Source: Natronococcus sp. AD-5 (lineage in GTDB: Archaea; Halobacteriota; Halobacteria; Halobacteriales; Natrialbaceae). Taken from it: a stretch of DNA of 64,000 nucleotides. The DNA lies in contig NZ_CP132294.1 of the NCBI RefSeq assembly GCF_030734285.1, positions 1,674,001 to 1,738,000 of the forward strand. The letters are read 5' to 3'. Under the pieces are notes generated by a model. The model made no database searches, was not told the DNA's origin, and was given only the letters and a program-made list of their open reading frames with translations. Both the position numbers and the translations under genes were made by a program. Below are positions 42,842-54,567 of the stretch, piece after piece (position 1 is the first letter of the stretch; every line of letters starts with the position of its first letter).

Positions 42842-43204
42842 TCACTCCGACGCCGTCTCGTCGTCTCCGTCCGACCTGTCGGCACGCTTCCGTCCCTCCG
42901 GGCGATCGACCGCGAACTCCTCCAGTTGCGCGATATCTTCGAGATCCTCGTCCGGATCGACCCGCTTCTTCCTCCTGCCGTACCGCCGCCGCTCGACCGC
43001 GCGGACTCGCCGGTCGGTGTCCCACTCCTCGAAGAGACCGTATTCGGTCATCGTCTCCATGCCGGCGATCGCGGCCGTGAGTTTGATGCCGACGAGCGGG
43101 ATCTCCGCGACGGAGACGATCACGTCAGCGCGGACGATGGCCCCGTCTCGGAGTAACACGTCCAGGACGTCGACGAACGTGTCCTCGTTCTTTTCCGGTT
43201 TCAT
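42842..43204 (-). CDS. gvpM: gas vesicle protein GvpM
   Basis: A 120-residue member of the GvpA/GvpJ/GvpM family: the conserved VDVLDVLLRDGAIVRADVIVSVAEIPLVGIKL then a variable, charged C-terminus. The family core is given here as VLDVLLRDGAIVRADVIVSV and EIPLVGIKL. Last gene of the gvpF-M operon and overlapping gvpL by four bases. GvpM is an accessory protein in gas vesicle nucleation. Identification as M rather than J rests on position and the short core. Confidence 0.85.
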   Translation of the reverse strand: MKPEKNEDTFVDVLDVLLRDGAIVRADVIVSVAEIPLVGIKLTAAIAGMETMTEYGLFEEWDTDRRVRAVERRRYGRRKKRVDPDEDLEDIAQLEEFAVDRPEGRKRADRSDGDDETASE

Positions 43205-44085
43205 GTGTCTTCGTTACCGCCCAGTTCGGGCGCGAACGTGTACGGCGGCCACGGTCCGCTGAACCGGACCTCGAGCCCGGGCGCCGCCGCGACGTCGTCG
43301 AGGACCGAGCCGATGGCCCCCTCGTCTTCTTCGTGGGCGAGCAGAGTGAGGCGGCAGAGCGTCTCGCCGTCGGTCGCCTCCGAGCCGGCGACGGTGCCGA
43401 CGGCCGCGTTCGGCGACCGCTCGAGCGCGTGAACCTCGCGGCTGACGTCCGCGAGCCGCCCCTGGAGGTCGTCGGACAGCGACTCCCGGCGCGCTCGCTG
43501 GAGTTCCGTGAGGCGCTGCTCGTACTGCTTCTCGAGGAGGAATCCTTCGCCCTCTCCGGCGTCGTCGATCTTCGCGTCCAGTTCGCGCAGCCGCTCGTCG
43601 CGCTCGAGCAGCGCCTCGTCGCCGATCGGCTCGGTTTCGACGACCTCGACGCGATACTCCCAGTGGGCCGCGAGTTCCGTCAACGCCCGCTCGAGCGTCG
43701 CCGACTCCTCGCGGAGCCACTCGCGAACGTCGTCGTCGTCGCCGCGCAGGATCGTGTCGAACTGGAACGGGATCGGCGTGCCGAAGGTCTCCCCGGCCTC
43801 GTCGACGACGGTCTGGTGTCGGACGAGCCACCGCTTGACCTGGGTGAGGTCCGCGGAGTCGTAGATCTCGTCGCAGGCGTGAACGACCGCGCCGATGCCG
43901 TCGACGGCGACGATCGAGACGGGTTCGCCGTCGACGCCGTCGGTCTCGAAGTCGGCGCCCTCGTCGGCCCGGACGATACAGTAGAGGTACCGCCCCTCGT
44001 CGATGTCCGGCGCCCCCGCGTCCAGTTCGTCGATCTCCTCGAGGTCCTCGAGGTCGGTTTCGGGATCGCCGGCGTCGGCCGTCAC
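43201..44085 (-). CDS. gvpL: gas vesicle protein GvpL
   Basis: A 294-residue GvpL/GvpF-family protein. It starts with an acidic leader, then GRYLYCIVRADEG, the family opening, and ends near PWPPYTFAPEL, matching the GPFAPYSFV block of GvpF. A long helical middle with charged heptads lies between. GvpL acts at gas vesicle nucleation with other accessory proteins. It overlaps gvpK and gvpM by four bases each. Confidence 0.92.
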   Translation of the reverse strand: MTADAGDPETDLEDLEEIDELDAGAPDIDEGRYLYCIVRADEGADFETDGVDGEPVSIVAVDGIGAVVHACDEIYDSADLTQVKRWLVRHQTVVDEAGETFGTPIPFQFDTILRGDDDDVREWLREESATLERALTELAAHWEYRVEVVETEPIGDEALLERDERLRELDAKIDDAGEGEGFLLEKQYEQRLTELQRARRESLSDDLQGRLADVSREVHALERSPNAAVGTVAGSEATDGETLCRLTLLAHEEDEGAIGSVLDDVAAAPGLEVRFSGPWPPYTFAPELGGNEDT

Positions 44086-44426
44086 TCCTCGTCACCTCCG
44101 AACACGGAATAGCCGGGTTTTCGGTACGCGGCCGGATCCGCATCGAGCCGTTCGATCGCGTCCGTGACCAGACCGTCCAGGTCTCCCCGGAGGTCATCGA
44201 CGCCGTCCTCGATCCCCTCGTCGCGCTTGAGCTGGTCGATCTCCGCTTCGATGGTCGACAGCTGGCGACCGAGGCGTTCGATCTCCTCGTCCGTGAGGTT
44301 ACCCGATTCCATGCGACGGACGGCCTCGCGCTCGAGCGTCTCGATGAGGATTTCGACGACGCTGATGACGAGGGTCATGAGCCCGTCGCGCGCGTCCTCG
44401 CCGTCGCCGACGTCGATCGCCGTCAT
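44082..44426 (-). CDS. gvpK: gas vesicle protein GvpK
   Basis: A 114-residue helical protein with the GvpK pattern GLMTLVISVVEILIETLERE AVRRM, here GLMTLVISVVEILIETLERE then AVRRMESGNL, followed by TDEEIERLGRQL. Minor gas vesicle component. Its start and end each overlap the neighbouring genes by four bases. Confidence 0.93.
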   Translation of the reverse strand: MTAIDVGDGEDARDGLMTLVISVVEILIETLEREAVRRMESGNLTDEEIERLGRQLSTIEAEIDQLKRDEGIEDGVDDLRGDLDGLVTDAIERLDADPAAYRKPGYSVFGGDEE

Positions 44427-44839
44427 CCGCCGGTCTCCTCCGCTTCGGGTGCGGTCGCTTCGTCCTCGTTCTCACCCTCGTTCGACTCGCTCTCCGCCTC
44501 GTCTTCGCGGTCGCCGTCTTCCTCTTCCTCGGGGTTGGGCGTGACGTTGACGCCGCGCGTCGGATCGATCGCCGGCTTGGGCCGCTCCATCTCCGCGAGT
44601 TCGGGTTCGTCGACGGCCTTGGCGAGCCGTCGCATATCCGTCCCTTCGGGGAATTCGAGGCCGTACTTCGCCGCGGTCTCGAACGAGGCGATGGCGGCCC
44701 GAACCTGAATGCCGAGCAGTTGCGTGTCGCCGATCGAGACGGCGATGTCCGCGTTGATGACGATCCCCTTGTCGAGCAGCATCTCGACGACCTCCGCGAG
44801 GTCGGCCTTCTGTCGGCTGGGCTGGAACTCGTCAACCAC
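44423..44839 (-). CDS. gvpJ: gas vesicle protein GvpJ
   Basis: A GvpA-like minor structural protein, about 138 residues from the chosen start. The core is ADLAEVVEMLLDKGIVINAD, then IAVSIGDTQLLGIQVRAAIASFETAA, given here in pieces: IAVSIGDTQLLG and IQVRAAIASFETAA. The C-terminus is a long Glu/Asp/Asn tail. The GTG at 44839 (MVDEFQPSRQ) is chosen because GAGGTGA, a good Shine-Dalgarno, lies just ahead; a TTG at 44974 would add a basic 45-residue segment foreign to the family. Overlaps gvpK by four bases. Confidence 0.88.
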   Translation of the reverse strand: MVDEFQPSRQKADLAEVVEMLLDKGIVINADIAVSIGDTQLLGIQVRAAIASFETAAKYGLEFPEGTDMRRLAKAVDEPELAEMERPKPAIDPTRGVNVTPNPEEEEDGDREDEAESESNEGENEDEATAPEAEETGG

Positions 44840-44976
44840 GGCACTCACCTCGCCCGGGCCCGCGGGGATCGCGGATCGGCCGTCGATCCGCCCGCGTCGG
44901 GTTCGATCCGCGGGCGGCGCCGCTCGCGGGTCTCGAGGCGGTCGTCGCCCGCTCTTCTCGTCGGCTGGATGCAAAG

Positions 44977-45897
44977 TTACTCATTGTTCTGTTTTCGTTT
45001 TTCTCGCTCGATTTCGAACCGCCGGCCGTAGATGCGCTCGAGAGCCGGCGCCGTCGAGAGCTTTACCTGCTGCGGGACGGTCGAGTGGCGCGCCCCGCCG
45101 CCGAGATCGCGCCTGTTCGTCGCCATCGTCGACACCGCCGTCGGGTTCCGGGAGGACGGACTCGTGTCCTGGCGGCGCATCTTCTCGCGGTTCGTCTCGT
45201 ACAGCTTCTCGAACTTCTCGTGGGTCACGAGTAGCGCGTCCCGGAAAGCGTCGATCCCTTCCATCGCCTGCTGCTGGATGAACGTCTGGTAGGCTTCGGG
45301 ATCGTTCTCGATGTCGGGTTTGCCCAACGCCTCTTTGGCGGCGTCCGCCGCGTCCATACCCGTCTCGATCAGCTCGTCGCCATCGTCGCCGCCGAGCAGC
45401 TCGCCGCCCTCGTCGGCGACCGCTGAAGCGGTCTTCTCGACCACGCTGGCGTCCTCGCTCTCGTCCGCGAGGTCGTCGACCGCGTCCTCGAGTTCGCGCT
45501 TCTCCTCCCAGATCTCGCCCAGGTCCGTCGCGTTCCACGCGTTCAGCAGGTCGATCGCCTGGAACACCTGCGTGAAGTCGACGACGTCGCCGGCACCCGT
45601 CTCCTCGTCCGTCAGCGCGTCCGGGACCTCGCCCGTTTCGATCGCCTCGAGCAACTCGCTGCCGTCGACGGCCTCGGGAAGTTCGCTCAGGTCCAGCGCC
45701 TCGATCAGTTCTCCGGTCTCCCGAGCGACCCGCGCGAGGGTGTCGACGTCGCCCAGCAGCGACTCGAGTTCGCCGTCTCCGAGTTCCTCGAGGTCGTCGG
45801 CGTCGCCGAGGGAATCCGCGACGTTTTCGAGCGCGGTCTCCGCCTCCGACAGCAGCTCCGCGAACGTCTCGTCGGCGCCGTCGTTCGCGTCGGTCAT
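44977..45897 (-). CDS. acidic protein in the gvpI position, GvpI-like only at its C-terminus
   Basis: A 306-residue protein between gvpH and gvpJ, the place of gvpI. Known GvpI proteins are small and basic. Here residues 1-250 are acidic and helical (for example GELIEALDLSELPEAVDGSE), with repeated Glu/Asp/Leu helices. Only the last 55 residues are basic: RRDLGGGARHSTVPQQVKLS then APALERIYGRRFEIEREKRK. That tail may be the GvpI-equivalent part. It overlaps gvpH by four bases. It could be a fusion of GvpI with an acidic scaffold, or an unrelated protein. Confidence 0.65.
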   Translation of the reverse strand: MTDANDGADETFAELLSEAETALENVADSLGDADDLEELGDGELESLLGDVDTLARVARETGELIEALDLSELPEAVDGSELLEAIETGEVPDALTDEETGAGDVVDFTQVFQAIDLLNAWNATDLGEIWEEKRELEDAVDDLADESEDASVVEKTASAVADEGGELLGGDDGDELIETGMDAADAAKEALGKPDIENDPEAYQTFIQQQAMEGIDAFRDALLVTHEKFEKLYETNREKMRRQDTSPSSRNPTAVSTMATNRRDLGGGARHSTVPQQVKLSTAPALERIYGRRFEIEREKRKQNNE

Positions 45898-46439
45898 CGG
45901 TCATCACCCCCCGAGGTCGCCGAGTCCGGCTCGCTTTCGGGTTCGATCGTCACGGTGAGCACGCCGTTCTTGATCGTCGCGTCGACAGTTCTGTCGCGCC
46001 AGGGGACGTCGACCCGGTCGAGCTCGCTCCCTGAGACGGCGACGACGAGCGTCGAGTCGTCGAACCCGACGGTGACATCCTCCGAGTCGGCCCCGGCGAC
46101 GTCGGCCGTGACGACCAGTTCGTCGTCGTAGACGTTCGCGGTCAGGTGATGCGAGTCCGACTGCGTCCGGCGACGGCGTCGCTTTCGCGGTCGTTCGGCG
46201 ACGCCGTCGGTCTCGTCGCCGGACCGGATCGAATCGAACGAGCCGCCGCTCGAGCGATCGAGCCCGGTGTCGACGGAGATGTTGTAGTCGAGCGTCGTGC
46301 GATCACCGCGCCGGCGCCCCGATACCGATCCCTCGTTGCGCTCGAGTCGCTCGAGCGCCGAGAGCAGGGTCGTGAGCCAGTGCGTCTCGTCGCGGTCGTC
46401 GCCCGATTCGTTCGGATTGTCGGCTGGATTGTCACTCAT
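45894..46439 (-). CDS. gvpH: gas vesicle protein GvpH (Hsp20-like)
   Basis: A 181-residue protein starting MSDNPADNPNESGDD. The N-terminal half is acidic and Ser/Arg-rich; the C-terminal 80 residues are a small heat-shock (alpha-crystallin) domain (SHHLTANVYDDELVVTADVAG through NGVLTVTIEPES). GvpH is thought to keep gas vesicle proteins soluble. The start overlaps the stop of gvpG by one base (TAATG), fixing both. Confidence 0.9.
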   Translation of the reverse strand: MSDNPADNPNESGDDRDETHWLTTLLSALERLERNEGSVSGRRRGDRTTLDYNISVDTGLDRSSGGSFDSIRSGDETDGVAERPRKRRRRRTQSDSHHLTANVYDDELVVTADVAGADSEDVTVGFDDSTLVVAVSGSELDRVDVPWRDRTVDATIKNGVLTVTIEPESEPDSATSGGDDR

Positions 46440-46693
46440 TATCGTTTCACCTCCACGCGGCCGCTCGAGAACCGCTCGTGGACCTCGCGAGCGATCTCGA
46501 TCTCTTCCTCGAGTTCTTCTTTGCGGCGCCGGTACTCCTCCTCGGAGCGCTCGCCGAGTTCGTACAGCAGTTGGTTCTCCTTGAGCCGGTCCTCGAGCGC
46601 GTTCAGGTCGTACAGTTCGTCGAGCGCGATCGAGTGGAGCGCGTCGACGATGCCGACGAACGGTCGAAACAGGAGGTCGTCGAGGACGAACAT
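46439..46693 (-). CDS. gvpG: gas vesicle protein GvpG
   Basis: An 84-residue helical protein: MFVLDDLLFRPFVGIVDALH then the coiled-coil segment RSEEEYRRRKEELEEEIEIA. Matches GvpG in length and pattern. It starts 12 bases after gvpF and is coupled to gvpH. Confidence 0.93.
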   Translation of the reverse strand: MFVLDDLLFRPFVGIVDALHSIALDELYDLNALEDRLKENQLLYELGERSEEEYRRRKEELEEEIEIAREVHERFSSGRVEVKR

Positions 46694-46705
46694 GGCTCTC
46701 TCGGC

Positions 46706-47335
46706 TCACCCCTGGGCTCCGATCTTGACGTTGACGAAGCTGTACGGCGCGAACGGCCCCGTATACTGGAACATGAGTTCGTCGCCGTACTCCTCTTCGA
46801 GGGCGGCGACCGCGTCGTCGAATTCCTCCTGGTCGTCTTTGTCGACGAGGTACGATCGGTTGAACACGAGTCGATCGCTGAACAGGTCGTCCGGGACCGA
46901 TTGCGCGGCGATCGGCTCGAGTTCGTCCGCGACGGCCTCGGCGATCGCCTCCCGATCGACGTCGGCGTCCTCCTCGCGAACGAGTTTGAGGCCGAGTTCG
47001 ATCTTGCCCTCGATGTCCCGCAGGGCGCGTCTGAACGCCGGCTGCGCGCCGCGCAGGACGTTCTTCAGCTCCCGGTCGCCCTCGAAGGCCATCCCGAACT
47101 GCATCGGGACGATCGTCTGCCCGCCGTCGTACTCCATGATCTCCCTGAGGACGTCGTCGTGGAGTTGGGCGTCCTCGTCGGTCTCTTCCGGTTCGGTCGT
47201 GTCGATGTCGGAGACGACCGCCCCGTACCGTCGATGGGTGACGGTGTAGACGCGGTCGGCACCGGCGACGGCGTCGGTATCGAACTCGACGTCGTCGCTG
47301 GCTTCGATCACGCCGTAGACGTACCTGTGACTCAC
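46706..47335 (-). CDS. gvpF: gas vesicle protein GvpF
   Basis: A 209-residue GvpF/L-family protein, with the opening HRYVYGVIEASDD, IVPMQFGMAFEGD in the middle and YTGPFAPYSFVNVKIG near the end. A structural accessory protein of the vesicle. First gene of the minus-strand operon, divergent from gvpA across a 242-base control region. Confidence 0.94.
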   Translation of the reverse strand: MSHRYVYGVIEASDDVEFDTDAVAGADRVYTVTHRRYGAVVSDIDTTEPEETDEDAQLHDDVLREIMEYDGGQTIVPMQFGMAFEGDRELKNVLRGAQPAFRRALRDIEGKIELGLKLVREEDADVDREAIAEAVADELEPIAAQSVPDDLFSDRLVFNRSYLVDKDDQEEFDDAVAALEEEYGDELMFQYTGPFAPYSFVNVKIGAQG

Positions 47336-47577
47336 GAGCGGATCGCCCTCCGTTCCACTGTTCGTGGGCGTAACCGTACGTCTCGTCTACGTGGGATGCG
47401 TATCAGTGTCATAGGAGTTCGAGATGAGGGCCGGTAAGGCGAACGACTCTTGAGTACAATTCGGCAGCCGCGCGCGTTACCGTGGTGCTTGCAGTAGCAG
47501 CCTCGGTTCCTTATCCGAAAACGTGCATCAGGCTTGCAGTAGCAGCGACAGCCGTGTTACCCATCGGTGCGCAACGT
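47336..47577. promoter_or_regulatory. divergent control region of the gas vesicle operons
   Basis: The only space between the gvpF-M and gvpA-N-O operons, so it holds both promoters. A 14-base direct repeat, GCTTGCAGTAGCAG, occurs at 47487-47500 and 47532-47545, a 45-base period (about four helical turns). No match to the GvpE-responsive element described for other haloarchaea was recognised. Confidence 0.65.
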
Positions 47578-47871
47578 ATGAACGCTATGCCATCTCAACG
47601 AAGACCCGACTCCTCGAGTCTCGCGGAAGTACTGGACCGCGTCCTCGACAAGGGCGTCGTCATCGACGTCTGGGCCCGCATCTCGGTCGTCGGGATCGAA
47701 CTGCTGACGATCGAAGCTCGGGTCGTCGTCGCCTCCGTCGACACCTTCCTCCACTACGCGGAGGAGATCGCAAAAATTGAGCAGGCGACGGCGGAGGGCG
47801 ATATCGAGGATCTCGAGGAACTCGAGATCGAAGAGCGAGCCGAATCCTCGCCACAGTCCGCCTCCGAGTAA
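47578..47871 (+). CDS. gvpA: gas vesicle protein GvpA
   Basis: The main gas vesicle shell protein. The core is nearly identical to the Halobacterium protein: [20 protein letters not shown] then [20 protein letters not shown] and [17 protein letters not shown]. The C-terminus is longer and more acidic than usual ([20 protein letters not shown]). Two starts are possible, ATG at 47578 or at 47587 ([10 protein letters not shown]); the second is closer to known GvpA lengths. First gene of the plus-strand operon. Confidence 0.95.
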
Positions 47872-47876
47872 CCGAC

Positions 47877-48920
47877 ATGGGGGATTCGTCTTCGCGCGAG
47901 CGAAAGGTCCGCGGACGGAAGATCCGCGCGGACCGCAGTCAGAAGAAACGTCGGAAAGCGAAGAAAAAGGCGAAGAATGAATTCGATCGGACGGCGAACG
48001 GGACGAAAAGCGAAGCGAAGAGCGGAGGCGGGGACTCGATCCTCTCGAGCCCCGACGAGGTCGCACCCGACCCGTTCGTCGAGACCGACGCAGTCACGTC
48101 GCTGCGCGATCGGATCGCCGGCTGGCTCGAGGCCGACCAGCCGGTCCACCTGATCGGGCCGACCGGCTGCGGAAAGACGGCGCTCGCGCTCTCGGCGGCG
48201 GCGGCCCGCGACCGACCGGTCGTCTGGCTCAACGGCGACGAGGCCGTCGGCACCGCCGAACTCGTCGGCACCCACGCCGGCGGGGAGCGCTACGAAGAGC
48301 ACGATCAGTTCGTCAGCGGCGTCAACAAGAAGACTCAGGTCGTCCGCGAGCGGTGGGTCGACAACCCGCTCTCGGTCGCGGTCAAGGAAGGCGCGACGCT
48401 GGTCTACAACGAGTTCTCGCGAAGCGACCCCGCAGCGCACAACGTCCTCCTCTCGGTACTCGAGGAGGGCGTTCTCGAGCGACCGGGAAAGCGCGGCGCC
48501 GACCGGACGGTCGACGTCCACCCCGAGTTCAGACTGCTCGTGACCTCGAACGACGTCGAGTACGCGGGCGTCCACGAACAGCAGGACGCGCTGCTCGACC
48601 GGTTCGTCGGCGTCCACGTCGACTACTACGACGAGGAGACGGAACGCGAGATCGCCGCCGCCCACGTCGACGTCCCCGACGAAACCGTCGCGGAGATCGT
48701 CGACGCGACGCGGCGACTCCGCGACGAACTCGACATCGTCGTCGGGACTCGCGCAGCCATCACGGTTGCGGAGGGGCTCACGATCTTCGCCGAGGACGGC
48801 ACCGGCGAGTTCGACGACGAGTTGCTGGCCGACGTGTTTACGGACGTTCTCGCGCCGAAGCTCGCCGGCGAGGACGACGAGATCGGCGACCTCCGAGAAG
48901 CGATCAGAAACGCACTCTAG
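47877..48920 (+). CDS. gvpN: gas vesicle protein GvpN (MoxR-type AAA ATPase)
   Basis: A 347-residue ATPase needed for normal vesicle growth. Walker A is GPTGCGKT (94-101), Walker B is TLVYNEFSR and sensor-1 is LLVTSNDVEYAG. The first 50 residues are Lys/Arg-rich (RGRKIRADRSQKKRRKAKKK), standing out in this acidic proteome. Starts five bases after gvpA and overlaps nothing; gvpO follows after ten bases. Confidence 0.95.
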   Translation: MGDSSSRERKVRGRKIRADRSQKKRRKAKKKAKNEFDRTANGTKSEAKSGGGDSILSSPDEVAPDPFVETDAVTSLRDRIAGWLEADQPVHLIGPTGCGKTALALSAAAARDRPVVWLNGDEAVGTAELVGTHAGGERYEEHDQFVSGVNKKTQVVRERWVDNPLSVAVKEGATLVYNEFSRSDPAAHNVLLSVLEEGVLERPGKRGADRTVDVHPEFRLLVTSNDVEYAGVHEQQDALLDRFVGVHVDYYDEETEREIAAAHVDVPDETVAEIVDATRRLRDELDIVVGTRAAITVAEGLTIFAEDGTGEFDDELLADVFTDVLAPKLAGEDDEIGDLREAIRNAL

Positions 48921-48930
48921 AAGACCGACT

Positions 48931-49470
48931 ATGGCCGAGGCAGATACGAACTCCGCGAACCAGTGCCGGGCGCTCACCGAGGACGGCGAGCGCTGTTCGC
49001 GCCCAGCCCAGGACGACGGGTTCTGTTATCAACACGACAAGGGTGATCCGACCGTGAGTGACAGTCAAACAGCAGAAACCGAACAGGAGGAACAGGAACA
49101 GGAGCAAGAGCAGGAAGCAGACCGGGACGCCCAGTCCGCCGACATGGCCACAGAGGAGACGACCGATCCCGGTGACGTCGATACGAGCGACGTCGACGAG
49201 GACAGCGACATCGCCGGCGTCCTCGCGGTCCGACAGACGGTTCAGTCGACCGCCGGACAGATCGTCGGGCACGAGTTCGACGGTGTCAGCGAAATCTCGC
49301 CCATGGACGACGGCTGGCGGGCGGTCGTCGAAGTCGTCGAGCGGTCGGCGGTTCCCGACACCCAGGACATCATCGGACGATACGAGATCGAACTCGGCGA
49401 AGAGGGCGTCGTCCAGGGATACCGACGGCTCGACCGGTACCGTCGCGGCGATACGACGGCGTTCGAGTAA
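48931..49470 (+). CDS. gvpO: gas vesicle protein GvpO with N-terminal Cys/His motif
   Basis: A 179-residue protein. The C-terminal half is GvpO: VVEVVERSAVPDTQDIIGRYEI then YRRLDRYRRGD. The N-terminus carries QCRALTEDGERCSRPAQDDG then FCYQHDKGD, a C-x8-C-x9-C-x3-H motif of the type thought to bind zinc in several small haloarchaeal proteins. A Glu/Gln-rich linker joins the two. GvpO is required for vesicle formation; the added motif may allow nucleic acid or protein binding. Ends the gvpA-N-O operon. Confidence 0.9.
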   Translation: MAEADTNSANQCRALTEDGERCSRPAQDDGFCYQHDKGDPTVSDSQTAETEQEEQEQEQEQEADRDAQSADMATEETTDPGDVDTSDVDEDSDIAGVLAVRQTVQSTAGQIVGHEFDGVSEISPMDDGWRAVVEVVERSAVPDTQDIIGRYEIELGEEGVVQGYRRLDRYRRGDTTAFE

Positions 49471-49668: not shown

Positions 49669-50001
49669 GTGCAACTCGTCTCCGGAACGCCCGTCTACGG
49701 CGTCGACGTCGGGCCGTCGACCCGCTGTGCGCACTATCACACGGATCGCGACGTCCTCGCGTTCAAGTTCGACTGCTGCGAGCGATACTATCCCTGTTTT
49801 CGCTGTCACGACGCCGTGACCGACCACGACGCGGAGCCGTGGCCCCGGCATCGGTTCACGGAGCCGTCCGTTCTCTGCGGCGCGTGCGGAACGAAACTCA
49901 CCGCTCCCGACTACCTCGAGTGCGACTATCGGTGTCCCTCCTGTGAAGCGCCGTTCAATCCCGGCTGTGGGGCCCACCTGGACCGGTACGTGGAGCAGTA
50001 G
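49669..50001 (+). CDS. CHY zinc-finger protein
   Basis: A 110-residue protein from a GTG start. It has the CHY-type zinc finger signature: STRCAHYHTDRDVLAFKF, CCERYYPCFRCHD, then VLCGACGTKLT and CPSCEAPFNPGCGAHLDRY, which should bind three zinc ions. Such proteins occur alone in archaea and act in protein degradation or mitochondrial import in eukaryotes; the function here is unknown. Confidence 0.88.
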   Translation: MQLVSGTPVYGVDVGPSTRCAHYHTDRDVLAFKFDCCERYYPCFRCHDAVTDHDAEPWPRHRFTEPSVLCGACGTKLTAPDYLECDYRCPSCEAPFNPGCGAHLDRYVEQ

Positions 50002-50033: not shown

Positions 50034-51686
50034 TCAGTCGTCCGCCGGCACCCGTCTCGAGGGCGTCACTTCGGACGCCGTCTCCCCGAGCAGCGCCGCC
50101 TCGACTTTCGGGGCGAGTTCGTTCACCATCGCGCGACCGTCCCGTTCGCGAACGACCAGTCCGTCCTCGGCCAGCGCGGAGAGGTGGTGCGAGACGGTGC
50201 TGGGATCGCGGTCGAGTTCGTCCGCCAGCCGGCCGTTGTGCGCCCGCCCGACCTCCGCGAGGGTCTCGAGTACGTCTCGCTTGGCCGGCTCCTCGAGCGC
50301 CGCGTGGAGTTCGACGTCCGTCGCGTCGAGGTAGTACCGGCGCTTGCCGTTGACTTTGACCGCCGTCACCATCCCCTCCTCTTCGAGTACGCGGACGTGG
50401 TGGCGAACGGTCGACAGCGACACGCCGCTTCGCTCGCTCACCCGCGAGAGGTAGCAGCCGGGTTCGTCCTGGATCGTCGCGTAGACGGCCTGGCGGGCGT
50501 CGTTCTCGAGCGGGTCGGAGTCGTCGTACCGGCTGTATCGAAGGATCGCCAGCAGTTCCCACGGGAGCTCCGAGAGCATCCGCCGGAGGTGGCGAAGCGA
50601 GAACTGGCTCGTCCAGCCGGCGATGGCGCTACCCGCTGATCCGGACGCTCCGGCGGCTCCGGACGCCCCAGCGCTCCCGGCCGTCGCCCCGGACGCCGTG
50701 ACCACGCCGAGCAACCCGACCAGGATCGCGTCCGTAGCGGCTGACGGGCCCTCGCGGCCATCGGACGCGCTGGACCCGGCGGTCCCGTCGTCATCGGCGG
50801 CCGTCTCGTTTGCACCCGTCCCGTCGTCGGCCGTCTCCCCCGACGAAACGGCGGCCGTCGTCTCGAGATCGTCCACCGACTCGCCGGTCTCGGTGCCGTC
50901 GCGGTCGATCGGCTCGCTCGAGTTCGTCGCGTTCTCGACCGTTTCCGACGTCTCGTCGATATCGAACTCGGCCGGTACGAACGTCGATTCCGCCGTTTCC
51001 TCGGTTAGTTCGATCGTCTCCTCGGTCGTGTCGTCGACGAGGTCTGCGGTCTCTTCGGACGTCTCATCGACGAGGTCCGTCGTCTCCTCGGACGTGCTTT
51101 CGACGGCATCCGTCGTTTCCTCCGTCGTCTCGTCGACGGAGTCGGACAGGTCGTCGGCCGGTTCCTCGAGCGAGGTCGATTCGACGGTGTGCTCGTCGAC
51201 CGTCTCCGTCGTCTCCTCGCTTGCGCTTTCGACGGTATCCGTCGTCTCGGCGGTCGTCTCTTCCGCGGTGTCCTCCGTTTCCTCAGCTGTCTCTTCGATC
51301 GTACCTGTCGTTTCCTCGGTCGTTTCCGACGTGTCCAGCGTTTCGTCAGTCGTCTCGCTGGCGGTTTCGTCCGTCTCGTCCGTCTCTTCCGTTTCGTCGG
51401 TCTCGTTAGCCGTCTCTTCGACGGCTTCACCCGTCTCATCTGTCGCGTGGTTCGTCTCGTTCGTCGCGCCGCTCGAGCCCTCGACTTCGGTCACGTTCTC
51501 GTCGTCGTTCGTCGACTCGTTCACCTCGGCGAGCGTCGAGTCGTCCTCGTCGGAGTCCAGCTCCGTCGGACTCGAGTCGATCTCGTCGATCGCTCCGGCG
51601 GCGAGGCCGACGAGCGGAAGACCGAGTATCAGTACCGCGACCAGGCAGACCAGTAGCCGGGCCGCGAACGACGAACGTCGTTCCAT
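50034..51686 (-). CDS. membrane-tethered double winged-helix regulator with acidic Thr/Glu stalk
   Basis: A 550-residue protein of unusual build. Residues 9-31 are a signal or anchor helix (LLVCLVAVLILGLPLVGLAA). Residues 34-315 are almost only Glu, Thr, Asp, Ser and Val; between about 185 and 231 they run as 11-residue repeats (DETTEETTDAV, ESTSEETTDLV, DETSEETADLV, DDTTEETIELT). A second hydrophobic Ala/Gly-rich segment spans about 317-357. Two ArsR-type winged helices follow, about 400-455 (SGVSLSTVRHHVRVLEEEGM) and 466-535 (LDRDPSTVSHHLSALAEDGL). The expected topology is an outside stalk and cytoplasmic DNA-binding domains. Next to the gas vesicle cluster, but direction and target are unknown. 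Confidence 0.8.
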   Translation of the reverse strand: MERRSSFAARLLVCLVAVLILGLPLVGLAAGAIDEIDSSPTELDSDEDDSTLAEVNESTNDDENVTEVEGSSGATNETNHATDETGEAVEETANETDETEETDETDETASETTDETLDTSETTEETTGTIEETAEETEDTAEETTAETTDTVESASEETTETVDEHTVESTSLEEPADDLSDSVDETTEETTDAVESTSEETTDLVDETSEETADLVDDTTEETIELTEETAESTFVPAEFDIDETSETVENATNSSEPIDRDGTETGESVDDLETTAAVSSGETADDGTGANETAADDDGTAGSSASDGREGPSAATDAILVGLLGVVTASGATAGSAGASGAAGASGSAGSAIAGWTSQFSLRHLRRMLSELPWELLAILRYSRYDDSDPLENDARQAVYATIQDEPGCYLSRVSERSGVSLSTVRHHVRVLEEEGMVTAVKVNGKRRYYLDATDVELHAALEEPAKRDVLETLAEVGRAHNGRLADELDRDPSTVSHHLSALAEDGLVVRERDGRAMVNELAPKVEAALLGETASEVTPSRRVPADD

Positions 51687-51831
51687 TCCAATCGCCAGTA
51701 CATTACAGATGCTATGTAATACGCTTTTCCGTGTATTTAAAGGGAGATTATCGGTCGAGCGCCGCGGCTCGTACCGATAACGGAACGTCGATCCAGCAAG
51801 GTATTTCCCCGTCGAGCGGCGGACTCAAGGT

Positions 51832-54567
51832 ATGGATCCGGCGCTTGGCCCGCCCGACGCGATGGCCGAGAAGCGCGACGAGCTAACGCCGATGATGCGG
51901 CAGTACCACGATCTCTGTGCGCGCTACGACGACGCGCTCGTCCTCTTCCAGGTCGGCGACTTCTACGAGACCTTCTGCGGCGCCGCCGAACGCACCGCGC
52001 GGCTGCTCGAAGTGGCGCTGACCAGCCGCGAGGACAGCACCGGCGAGTACCCGATGAGCGGCATCCCGATCGACAACGCCGAGTCGTACATCGAGGAGTT
52101 GCTCGAGGCCGGCTACCGCGTCGCCGTGGCGGACCAGATCGAAGAGCCCGGCGAGTCGCCGGGGGTCGTCGAGCGCGCGGTCACGCGCGTGATCACCCCC
52201 GGGACGCTCACCGAGGACGAACTGCTCGCGAGCGACGACAACAACTTCGTGGCCGCGGTCGCGCGGGACGGCACCGATCTCGCGCTCGCCCTGCTCGACG
52301 TCTCGACCGGCGACTTTCTCGCGACGAGTTCCGCGACGCGGGAGGCGGTCGCCGACGAGGTGAGCCGGTTCGATCCCCCCGAGGCCGTCGTCGGCCCGGA
52401 CGCGCCCGCGGACCTCTTTCCCGAGACCTGCATGGTGACGCCGTTCGAGGCCGACGCGTTCGATCGCGAGCGCGCGGGAGAGACGGTGTCGCGATACTTC
52501 CGCAATCCCGACGCCCTGCTCGCCAGCGACGCCGAGATTCGGGCCTGCGGCGCGCTGCTCTCCTACGCGGAGTACGTTCGCGGCGGCGAACACGAGGGCG
52601 AGCGCGGCGGTACCACCGATGCCGACGCGGACGACACCGAACCCGAGGACGCCGACGACGCTCGCCTCGAGTACATCACGCACCTCACCCGCTACGATCC
52701 CCGAGAGTACCTGCTGCTGGACGCCGTCGCGCTGCGGAGCCTCGAACTGTTCGAACCGCGGGCCGTCCGCGGCCGCGAGGACGCGACGCTCGTCGGCGTG
52801 TTGGACGAGACGGCCTGCGCGCTGGGCGGCCGCAAACTGCGGGACTGGATTCGCCGCCCGCTGCTTCAGCCGGACCGGATCGAGGCGCGACTGGACGCGG
52901 TCGAGGAGCTGACGTCGGGCGTCCGGCGTCGAGAGCGGCTCCACGAACTGCTGCGTGACGTCTACGACTTGGAGCGCCTGATCGGTCGGATCTCCCGCGA
53001 GCGAGCCAACGCGCGGGACCTGCGCTCCCTCCGCGATACGCTGGCCGTCGTTCCCGACGTTCGAGACCAGCTCGCCGACGCCGACTGCGATCGCCTCCGG
53101 CAGCTACACGCCGATCTCGATCCGCTCGCCGACGTTCGCGAACTGATCGACGACGCCATCGTTTCCGATCCGCCGATCGAGATCACCGAGGGCGGCATCG
53201 TCGCCGAGGAGTACGACGCGGACTTAGACGACCTCCGCGGAACCGCGCGGGACGGCAAGCGGTGGATCGACGACCTCGAGGAGCGCGAGCGCGAGCGGAC
53301 CGGCGTCGACTCGCTGAAGGTCGGCTATAACTCGGTCCACGGCTACTACATCGAGGTCACGAACCCGAACCTCGAGGCCGTGCCCGACGACTACCAGCGC
53401 CGCCAGACCCTGAAGAACTCGGAGCGGTTCGTCACGCCGGAGCTCAAGGACCGCGAGGACGAGATCGTCGGCGCGGAGGAGCGCGCGGACGAACTCGAGT
53501 ACGAGCTCTTCTGCGACGTTCGCGGCGACGTCGCCGACGAAGTCGAGCGCGTCCAGGGGCTCGCCGACGCGCTCGCGACGCTCGACGCGCTCGTCTCGCT
53601 CGCGACCGCCGCGGCCCAGTACGACTACTGCCGGCCGGAGATCGCAGCGCGCGACGACGGCGAGGGGCTCGAGATCGACGTCGAGGGCGGCCGCCACCCC
53701 GTCGTCGAGCGCACCCAGGAGTCGTTCGTCCCGAACGGCGCTCGGTTCTCGCCCGGTCGGCGGCTGGCGGTGATCACGGGGCCGAACATGTCGGGCAAAT
53801 CGACCTATATGCGCCAGGTCGCCCAGATCGTCCTGCTGGCGCAGGTCGGCAGCTTCGTCCCCGCCCGGTCGGCCCGGATCACGCCCGTCGACCGGATCTT
53901 CACCCGCGTCGGCGCCAGCGACGATATCGCGGGCGGGCGCTCGACGTTCATGGTCGAGATGGACGAACTCGCGACCATCCTCCGGGAGGCCGACGAGCGC
54001 TCGCTGGTCCTTCTGGACGAGGTCGGCCGCGGCACCTCGACGGCCGACGGCCTCGCCATCGCGCAGGCGATCACCGAGCACATCCACGGCGTGGTCGGCG
54101 CGACGACGCTCTTTGCGACCCACCACCATCCGCTGACCGAACTCGCGGACGACCTCGAGGCCGCGTTCGCGCTCCACTTCGAGGTCGAGCAGGACGACGG
54201 CGAGGTCGTCTTCCACCACGAGATCGCCCCCGGCGCGGCGACGGGCTCCTACGGCGTCGAGGTCGCGACCGCCGCGGGCGTTCCCGAGTCGGTCGTCGAG
54301 CGCTCGCGGGAACTGGCCGCCGAAAACGCCACCGACGAGGCCGCGGGCGGATCCTCGAGCGACGATCCGACTACCGACGAAACTGCGCCCGCCACGGCGA
54401 CGGCCGACGGCGGCGAGCGGGCGACGGCGTCGCGATCCGCGTCGAACCACGATACCGACCCGTCGGCCGACGTCGCCGCCGAACTTCGGTCGCTCGAGGT
54501 GGCCCACCTCACGCCGGTCGAGGCACTGACGGAACTCGATCGGCTACGGCGGCTGCTCGAGGAGTGA
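51832..54567 (+). CDS. mutS: DNA mismatch repair protein MutS
   Basis: A 911-residue MutS1 ortholog. The N-terminal mismatch-binding motif [10 protein letters not shown] is present, as are the clamp and lever domains, the Walker [14 protein letters not shown], Walker [14 protein letters not shown] and the ATPase signature FATHHH. Two acidic inserts, one after the connector domain and one before the C-terminal dimerisation helix, are typical of haloarchaea. MutL, usual partner of MutS in this group, is not next to it. Confidence 0.97.

Follow-up and report, generated by a model that had tools for sequence, protein, structure and literature searches.

A window of 64,000 nucleotides from the genome of Natronococcus sp. 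AD-5, the whole stretch of DNA analyzed here, contains a cluster of gas vesicle (gvp) genes and, alongside it, a gene whose product carries two predicted DNA-binding domains and two hydrophobic segments. The locus poses two questions: whether this protein is a membrane-bound transcription regulator, and whether the gas vesicle genes are what it regulates. A first-pass annotation, made from sequence without database searches, had proposed a surface-sensing membrane-bound transcription factor, and had reasoned that since the neighboring cluster has neither gvpD nor gvpE this protein could be its regulator. The gene, which we refer to as the regulator gene, and the parts of its product are as follows.

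51686..50034, minus strand: regulator gene, 550 residues from an ATG start (open reading frame and translation)
51600..51656, minus strand: TM1, a signal-like helix, residues 11-29 (mean Kyte-Doolittle hydropathy 2.9)
50751..51590, minus strand: stalk, predicted to be extracellular, residues 33-312, with seven N-x-S/T sequons (composition)
50985..51155, minus strand: helical portion of the stalk with the 11-residue repeat, residues 178-234 (lag-11 z 7.1; AlphaFold2 helix)
50685..50741, minus strand: TM2, Gly/Ala-rich, residues 316-334 (hydropathy 1.6, weaker than TM1; predicted helix 317-332)
50316..50504, minus strand: winged helix 1 (HTH_HVO_0163_N), residues 395-457 (Pfam, AlphaFold2)
50112..50294, minus strand: winged helix 2 (ArsR/SmtB-like fold), residues 465-525 (Pfam, AlphaFold2, CzrA Z 13.3)

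The reading frame is real and lies on the minus strand, which the annotation had not specified, and a 385-residue open reading frame on the opposite strand (50623-51780) is taken to be a by-product of the repetitive codons. The sequence predicts the arrangement TM1-stalk-TM2-double winged helix with high confidence, and the signal-like helix, the second hydrophobic segment and the two winged helices that the annotation described are all present. The stalk, too, has the claimed length of about 280 residues, but to call it nearly pure Glu, Thr, Asp and Ser somewhat overstates the case, as these residues make up 70% of it (66 Glu, 62 Thr, 39 Asp and 28 Ser among 280); just two Lys or Arg are found within it in the window protein. 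Transmembrane segments were assigned by hydropathy in the window protein and its homologs, and TM1 is found in nearly every homolog.

Both winged helices have Pfam matches above the cut-offs and AlphaFold2 pLDDT values above 90. Winged helix 1 qualifies as a member of PF24266 (HTH_HVO_0163_N), matched at residues 395-457 with 46.4 bits for the whole protein and a cut-off of 31; no description of the function of HVO_0163 was found in the literature searched, which holds one passing mention of it. Winged helix 2 matches HTH_20/HTH_5 at residues 465-513 and scores above the cut-off of the ArsR/SmtB model NF033788, and it aligns structurally with CzrA over 94 residues (Z 13.3, rmsd 3.4). The invariant residues of the family are concentrated in the winged helices, where the recognition-helix motifs STVRHH and DPSTVSHH are conserved, and a signature upstream of winged helix 1, RYSRYDDSDPLEN / (R)YSRYDDSDPLE, is almost invariant among the homologs.

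The 11-residue repeat that the annotation had noticed in the stalk is well founded. Lag 11 gives the highest self-identity among lags 1-29 in the window stalk (z 7.1 relative to composition shuffles), with the units DETTEETTDAV / ESTSEETTDLV / DETSEETADLV / DDTTEETIELT at residues 185-228; lags 7, 18, 22 and 29 score too, in line with helical periodicity, and a DNA period of 33 is seen at 51014-51138. Within the range 4-30, lag 11 is the top lag in 26 of the 43 stalks of the clade to which the window gene belongs, and in 1 of 18 stalks from other clades. AlphaFold2 models the full-length protein poorly beyond the winged helices (mean pLDDT 50), and the model was used just for the sole moderately confident stretch of the stalk, one helix spanning residues 178-234 (pLDDT about 56-71). 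We infer from the repeat that this part could form a right-handed coiled coil, although the helix has one or two Val/Leu in each 11 residues of a very acidic chain and may require high salt, or may not pair. The stalk ranges from 138 to 502 residues among the homologs and evolves fast, since the window protein and a relative from the same genus are 54% identical in the stalk and 92% identical in the winged helices. We also note that the stalk of one paralog (L101) repeats strongly every 15 residues (z 21) rather than every 11, so that repeat length varies by clade.

The placement of the stalk relative to the membrane can be addressed through its glycosylation sequons. Archaeal N-glycosylation takes place outside the membrane, and sequons should be in excess only where it occurs. 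The 61 stalks together contain 453 N-x-S/T sequons, against an expectation of 170 when each stalk is shuffled separately and 166 occurrences of the mirrored S/T-x-N, and Lys and Arg account for 2.9% of the 30 residues preceding TM2 versus 8.8% of the 45 that follow. From the sequon asymmetry and the basic residues after TM2, the most likely topology has the stalk on the outer side of the membrane and the winged helices on the inner, with the caveat that the hydropathy of TM2 is weak in some clades (about 0.8-1.4), and the stalk is probably N-glycosylated. The evidence thus does not point to winged helices outside the membrane, the topology that would have contradicted the annotation.

These properties place the window protein under the published definition of the transmembrane transcription regulators (TTRs), one-component proteins that combine a DNA-binding domain with one or more transmembrane segments and are reported to be widespread in bacteria and archaea (PMC10269533). 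A DNA-binding domain is predicted by Pfam and AlphaFold2, hydropathy gives at least one transmembrane segment in the window protein and its homologs, and the sequons and the basic residues after TM2 indicate, indirectly, that the DNA-binding domain is cytoplasmic. Control of transcription is the predicted role, and we think it very probable that the protein is a TTR, in keeping with the membrane-bound transcription-factor architecture originally proposed. What distinguishes it from the class at large is the long, low-complexity, sequon-rich stalk with its 11-residue repeat, together with the two C-terminal winged helices; no description of this haloarchaeal subtype was found in the literature searched.

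Comparison with other known systems yields partial likenesses. ArnR and ArnR1 of Sulfolobus, which are membrane-bound HTH regulators of surface-structure and motility genes (PMC6396743), resemble the window protein in being archaeal, membrane-bound HTH regulators with the same working principle, but they have an N-terminal HTH, a HAMP and sensor region, two C-terminal transmembrane segments and no large outer stalk (PMC6396743), and the domain order of the window protein is the reverse. The activator GvpE, which is soluble and bZIP-like, and the P-loop protein GvpD, known from Halobacterium and Haloferax mediterranei (PMC4390858, PMC9501494), are alike in being encoded at a gvp locus, but their domain content is unrelated, and the GvpD P-loop domain PF07088 is not among the Pfam matches of the window protein. 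Winged helix 2 shares its fold with the ArsR/SmtB proteins CzrA and SmtB, as the NF033788 match and the CzrA alignment attest, but unlike these the window protein is membrane-tethered, has a second winged helix in tandem, and has no Cys within residues 465-550 from which a cysteine-based alpha-3 type metal site could be built. CsmR of Haloferax (PMC13286277) was rejected as a relative, being a 13-kDa winged-helix protein of other architecture.

Matches at E<=1e-20 are present in 103 of the 392 genomes of the order, and the TM1-stalk-TM2-double winged helix order is retained in about 60 haloarchaeal homologs, with a few others being short forms without the stalk. We examined 20-kb regions around 60 homologs, plus about 40 more regions containing gvp or a homolog. 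In the window, the gene neighbors are as follows.

42842..47335, minus strand: gvpF, G, H, I-like, J, K, L, M operon (F, G, K and L by Pfam, the others by order and length)
47587-47871, plus strand: gvpA (Pfam)
47877-48920, plus strand: gvpN (AAA domain and position)
48931-49470, plus strand: gvpO (Pfam)
49669..50001, plus strand: CHY zinc-finger gene, between gvpO and the regulator gene (PF05495, E 1e-11)
51832..54567, plus strand: mutS, divergent from the regulator gene (Pfam MutS I-V)

The gvpA-N-O and gvpF-M genes thus adjoin the regulator gene, as the annotation had it, and the proximity of homologs to gvp is non-random. The two lie within about 10 kb of each other in 34 of the 39 Natrialbaceae genomes possessing both, and in a second family (f6) the regulator gene is accompanied by gvp and CHY, without mutS, in 3/3 genomes. 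Among 42 orthologs of the Natrialbaceae clade, the 20-kb regions include gvp in 34, mutS in 31 and CHY in 28. The gvp linkage is kept where mutS is not adjacent, in a Halovivax-like clade and in genome G318, and mutS as the sole conserved partner was rejected, because gvp-CHY linkage outlasts mutS in two lineages.

The phylogeny bears on how this arrangement arose. The f6 genes sit in the tree among unlinked homologs from other families, and approximately unbiased (AU) tests reject both the grouping of f6 with the Natrialbaceae genes (p-AU 0.0008) and a single clade of all gvp-linked genes (p 0.0004). Because the f6 genes are not sister to those of the Natrialbaceae, the gvp neighborhood is, as judged from the tree, not a single recent accident, and either is very ancient with loss elsewhere or had two origins. 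Homologs of other clades have unrelated neighborhoods, and no one neighbor common to all clades of the family was found. One paralogous clade (L084, L086, L088, L091, L100, L101) has its own fixed neighbors, among them a divergent gene with a product of about 575-620 residues, and likely represents a separate regulon.

Several features of the gvp loci merit mention in their own right. Most Natrialbaceae and the f6 genomes retain the CHY gene between gvpO and the regulator gene or mutS, even where the regulator gene is missing, and it is possible that the CHY gene encodes an unrecognized partner of the gvp locus. The 306-residue protein encoded at the gvpI position (44977-45897) has no Pfam match and combines a GvpI-like C-terminal end with a long acidic N-terminal part, and GvpO (48931-49470) has an N-terminal DUF5763 domain (E 2e-17) ahead of its GvpO domain. 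The gvp cluster of genome G318 lies in two parts (L064, L132), with gvpF-M and the regulator gene on one contig and gvpA-N-O on another.

The regulator gene and gvp do not co-occur above chance, since in the Natrialbaceae an ortholog is present in 39 of 86 genomes with gvp and in 3 of 10 without it (Fisher p 0.5); the gene is kept without gvp in G055, G338 and G100. Within the same genus as the window, 4/6 genomes have gvp but no regulator gene, and in the three of these four that were examined the gvp-CHY-mutS arrangement is otherwise intact. In three genomes of the genus that lack the regulator gene, the family profile finds just weak winged-helix matches elsewhere. Many Natrialbaceae hold gvp-CHY-mutS without the regulator gene, and at 20 gvp loci lacking it the profile detects no same-family replacement beyond two weak matches (L124, L125). 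Because so many of these loci lack both the gene and a replacement from its family, gvp can function without the regulator. The majority of haloarchaeal gvp clusters are without gvpD/gvpE, several Natrialbaceae clusters among them being reported to be so (PMC4390858), and Natrinema, Natrialba and Natronobacterium are among the species whose clusters may be silent or conditionally transcribed, although it is not known which (PMC4390858).

The absence of gvpD near the regulator gene is itself confirmed, as the best GvpD-like match in the genome has an E-value of 4e-5, compared with 1e-73 or better for true GvpD, and the gvpF-gvpA gap, where a small bZIP-like GvpE would be encoded, is only about 250 bp long. 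However, the conclusion drawn from this absence does not follow. Among 163 gvp genomes, 8 have true gvpD (E 1e-73 or better) and 155 do not, and because its absence is the norm it does not single out the regulator gene; many gvpD-less clusters lack the regulator gene as well, and replacement of GvpD/E is weakened as a compelling argument. The regulator gene is found in 0/8 of the true-gvpD genomes, which is a small and family-confounded count.

If the protein acted directly on gvp, its binding sites might be sought among the conserved promoter elements, of which those in the window are as follows.

47488-47500 and 47533-47545, plus strand: two same-orientation copies of the 13-bp gvp element CTTGCANNNGCAG in the gvpF-gvpA intergenic region
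47553-47560, plus strand: CGTGTTAC box, downstream of the second CTTGCANNNGCAG copy and upstream of gvpA
51687..51831, no strand assigned: 145-bp intergenic region between the regulator gene and mutS, with the conserved CGGAAAA-GCGTATTAC promoter of the regulator gene

There are four exact copies of CTTGCANNNGCAG in the 5.17-Mb genome, two at gvp and two at unrelated sites of contig 2. In nearly all gvp clusters of the Natrialbaceae there are two copies in the gvpF-gvpA intergenic region, and 58 of the 68 gvp regions, but 0/32 promoters of the regulator gene, contain the core CTTGCANNNGCA. The gvpA-proximal copy lies at a near-constant distance, with the CGTGTTAC box about 7 bp downstream. In nine of ten genomes of other families, those with a known gvp position, the element is not near gvp, and it is absent in f6. 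Its position is similar to that of the GvpE-responsive element, which directly precedes BRE/TATA at each of the two divergent promoters (PMC9501494). Since CTTGCANNNGCAG is retained regardless of the presence of the regulator gene, its reader should be a separate factor that is more widely conserved, and we regard the element as a candidate site for a gvp regulator other than the winged-helix protein. As an operator for the winged-helix protein itself it is unsupported, being kept without the gene and absent in f6 where the gene is linked.

The promoter of the regulator gene, defined by alignment of 32 upstream regions and by motif counts, has in other genera an extra GTGACNGTCAC dyad immediately upstream of the CGGAAAA-GCGTATTAC sequence. 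The half-site pattern of this dyad is present in 16 of the 32 promoters of the gene itself and in 0/68 gvp promoter regions, and we found no dyad common to the two. A simple shared-operator model is disfavored because the promoter motifs do not overlap, although this argument leaves binding elsewhere unaffected.

The best explanation that we can offer for these observations as a whole is of a one-component transducer with an anchored, glycosylated stalk and the gvp/CHY cluster as its target, which we hold tentatively, at somewhat below an even chance; the gvp target taken by itself is a suggestion from the neighborhood and similarly tentative. A substantial probability, though also short of even, attaches to a TTR of another regulon, such as that of the cell surface, S-layer or envelope, with gvp-CHY-(mutS) being old inherited synteny that is meaningless for regulation. 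The lack of phyletic coupling, with the gene and gvp each persisting in the absence of the other, and the lack of a DNA motif common to the two promoters are as this proposal would have it, and the clade-specific neighbors of other clades suggest that stable neighbors are the norm in the family. Against it, the gvp-CHY linkage is seen again in a second family, whose gene does not group as sister to that of the first, and gvp linkage outlasts that of mutS in several lineages.

The same comparisons bear on the possibility that the protein controls the divergent mutS gene through their common 145-bp promoter region. The genes are head-to-head in most Natrialbaceae orthologs, three of which have no gvp nearby, but both the Halovivax-like clade and the second family retain gvp and have no adjacent mutS, mutS stays in place when the regulator gene is absent, and a surface stalk lacks an evident connection to mismatch repair, so that we consider this highly improbable. 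It is also highly improbable that the winged helices are a structural anchor tethering DNA or protein to the membrane with no control of transcription. Such pairs of winged helices can serve as protein-interaction modules, and the high ranks of the Foldseek searches also include scaffold proteins with winged helices, for example ScpB and RPC62, but the conserved recognition-helix motifs speak for DNA recognition, and the best full-domain structural matches of winged helix 2 are ArsR/SmtB repressors.

In the favored explanation, that of a single-protein signal transducer acting on gvp, the N-terminal helix and TM2 would anchor the protein in the membrane, and the acidic, Thr-rich stalk, probably N-glycosylated and in part an 11-residue-repeat helix, would extend into the cell-wall layer. 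A change in the stalk, whether of load, packing, glycan or S-layer state, would be relayed through TM2 to the two winged helices, which, probably in a dimer, would keep DNA bound at the membrane. Any view of what the stalk senses is conjecture, and the signal and the direction of control are likewise presumed. The likeliest single target would be the neighboring gvp (and CHY) cluster, and the regulator would act alongside, and not in place of, the separate factor reading the conserved gvp element. A more specific proposal, that the glycosylated repeat stalk is a mechanical or salt/S-layer probe that sets gas vesicle expression, is unlikely on present evidence, but if it were true a family of probe-stalk proteins would explain the switching of some gvp clusters that lack gvpD/gvpE. 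The stalk would be an unusual sensor design, in which repeat length and glycosylation sites are conserved and the sequence is not, and a conserved surface-to-DNA regulator together with a conserved promoter element may provide two testable handles on gas vesicle clusters without gvpD/gvpE.
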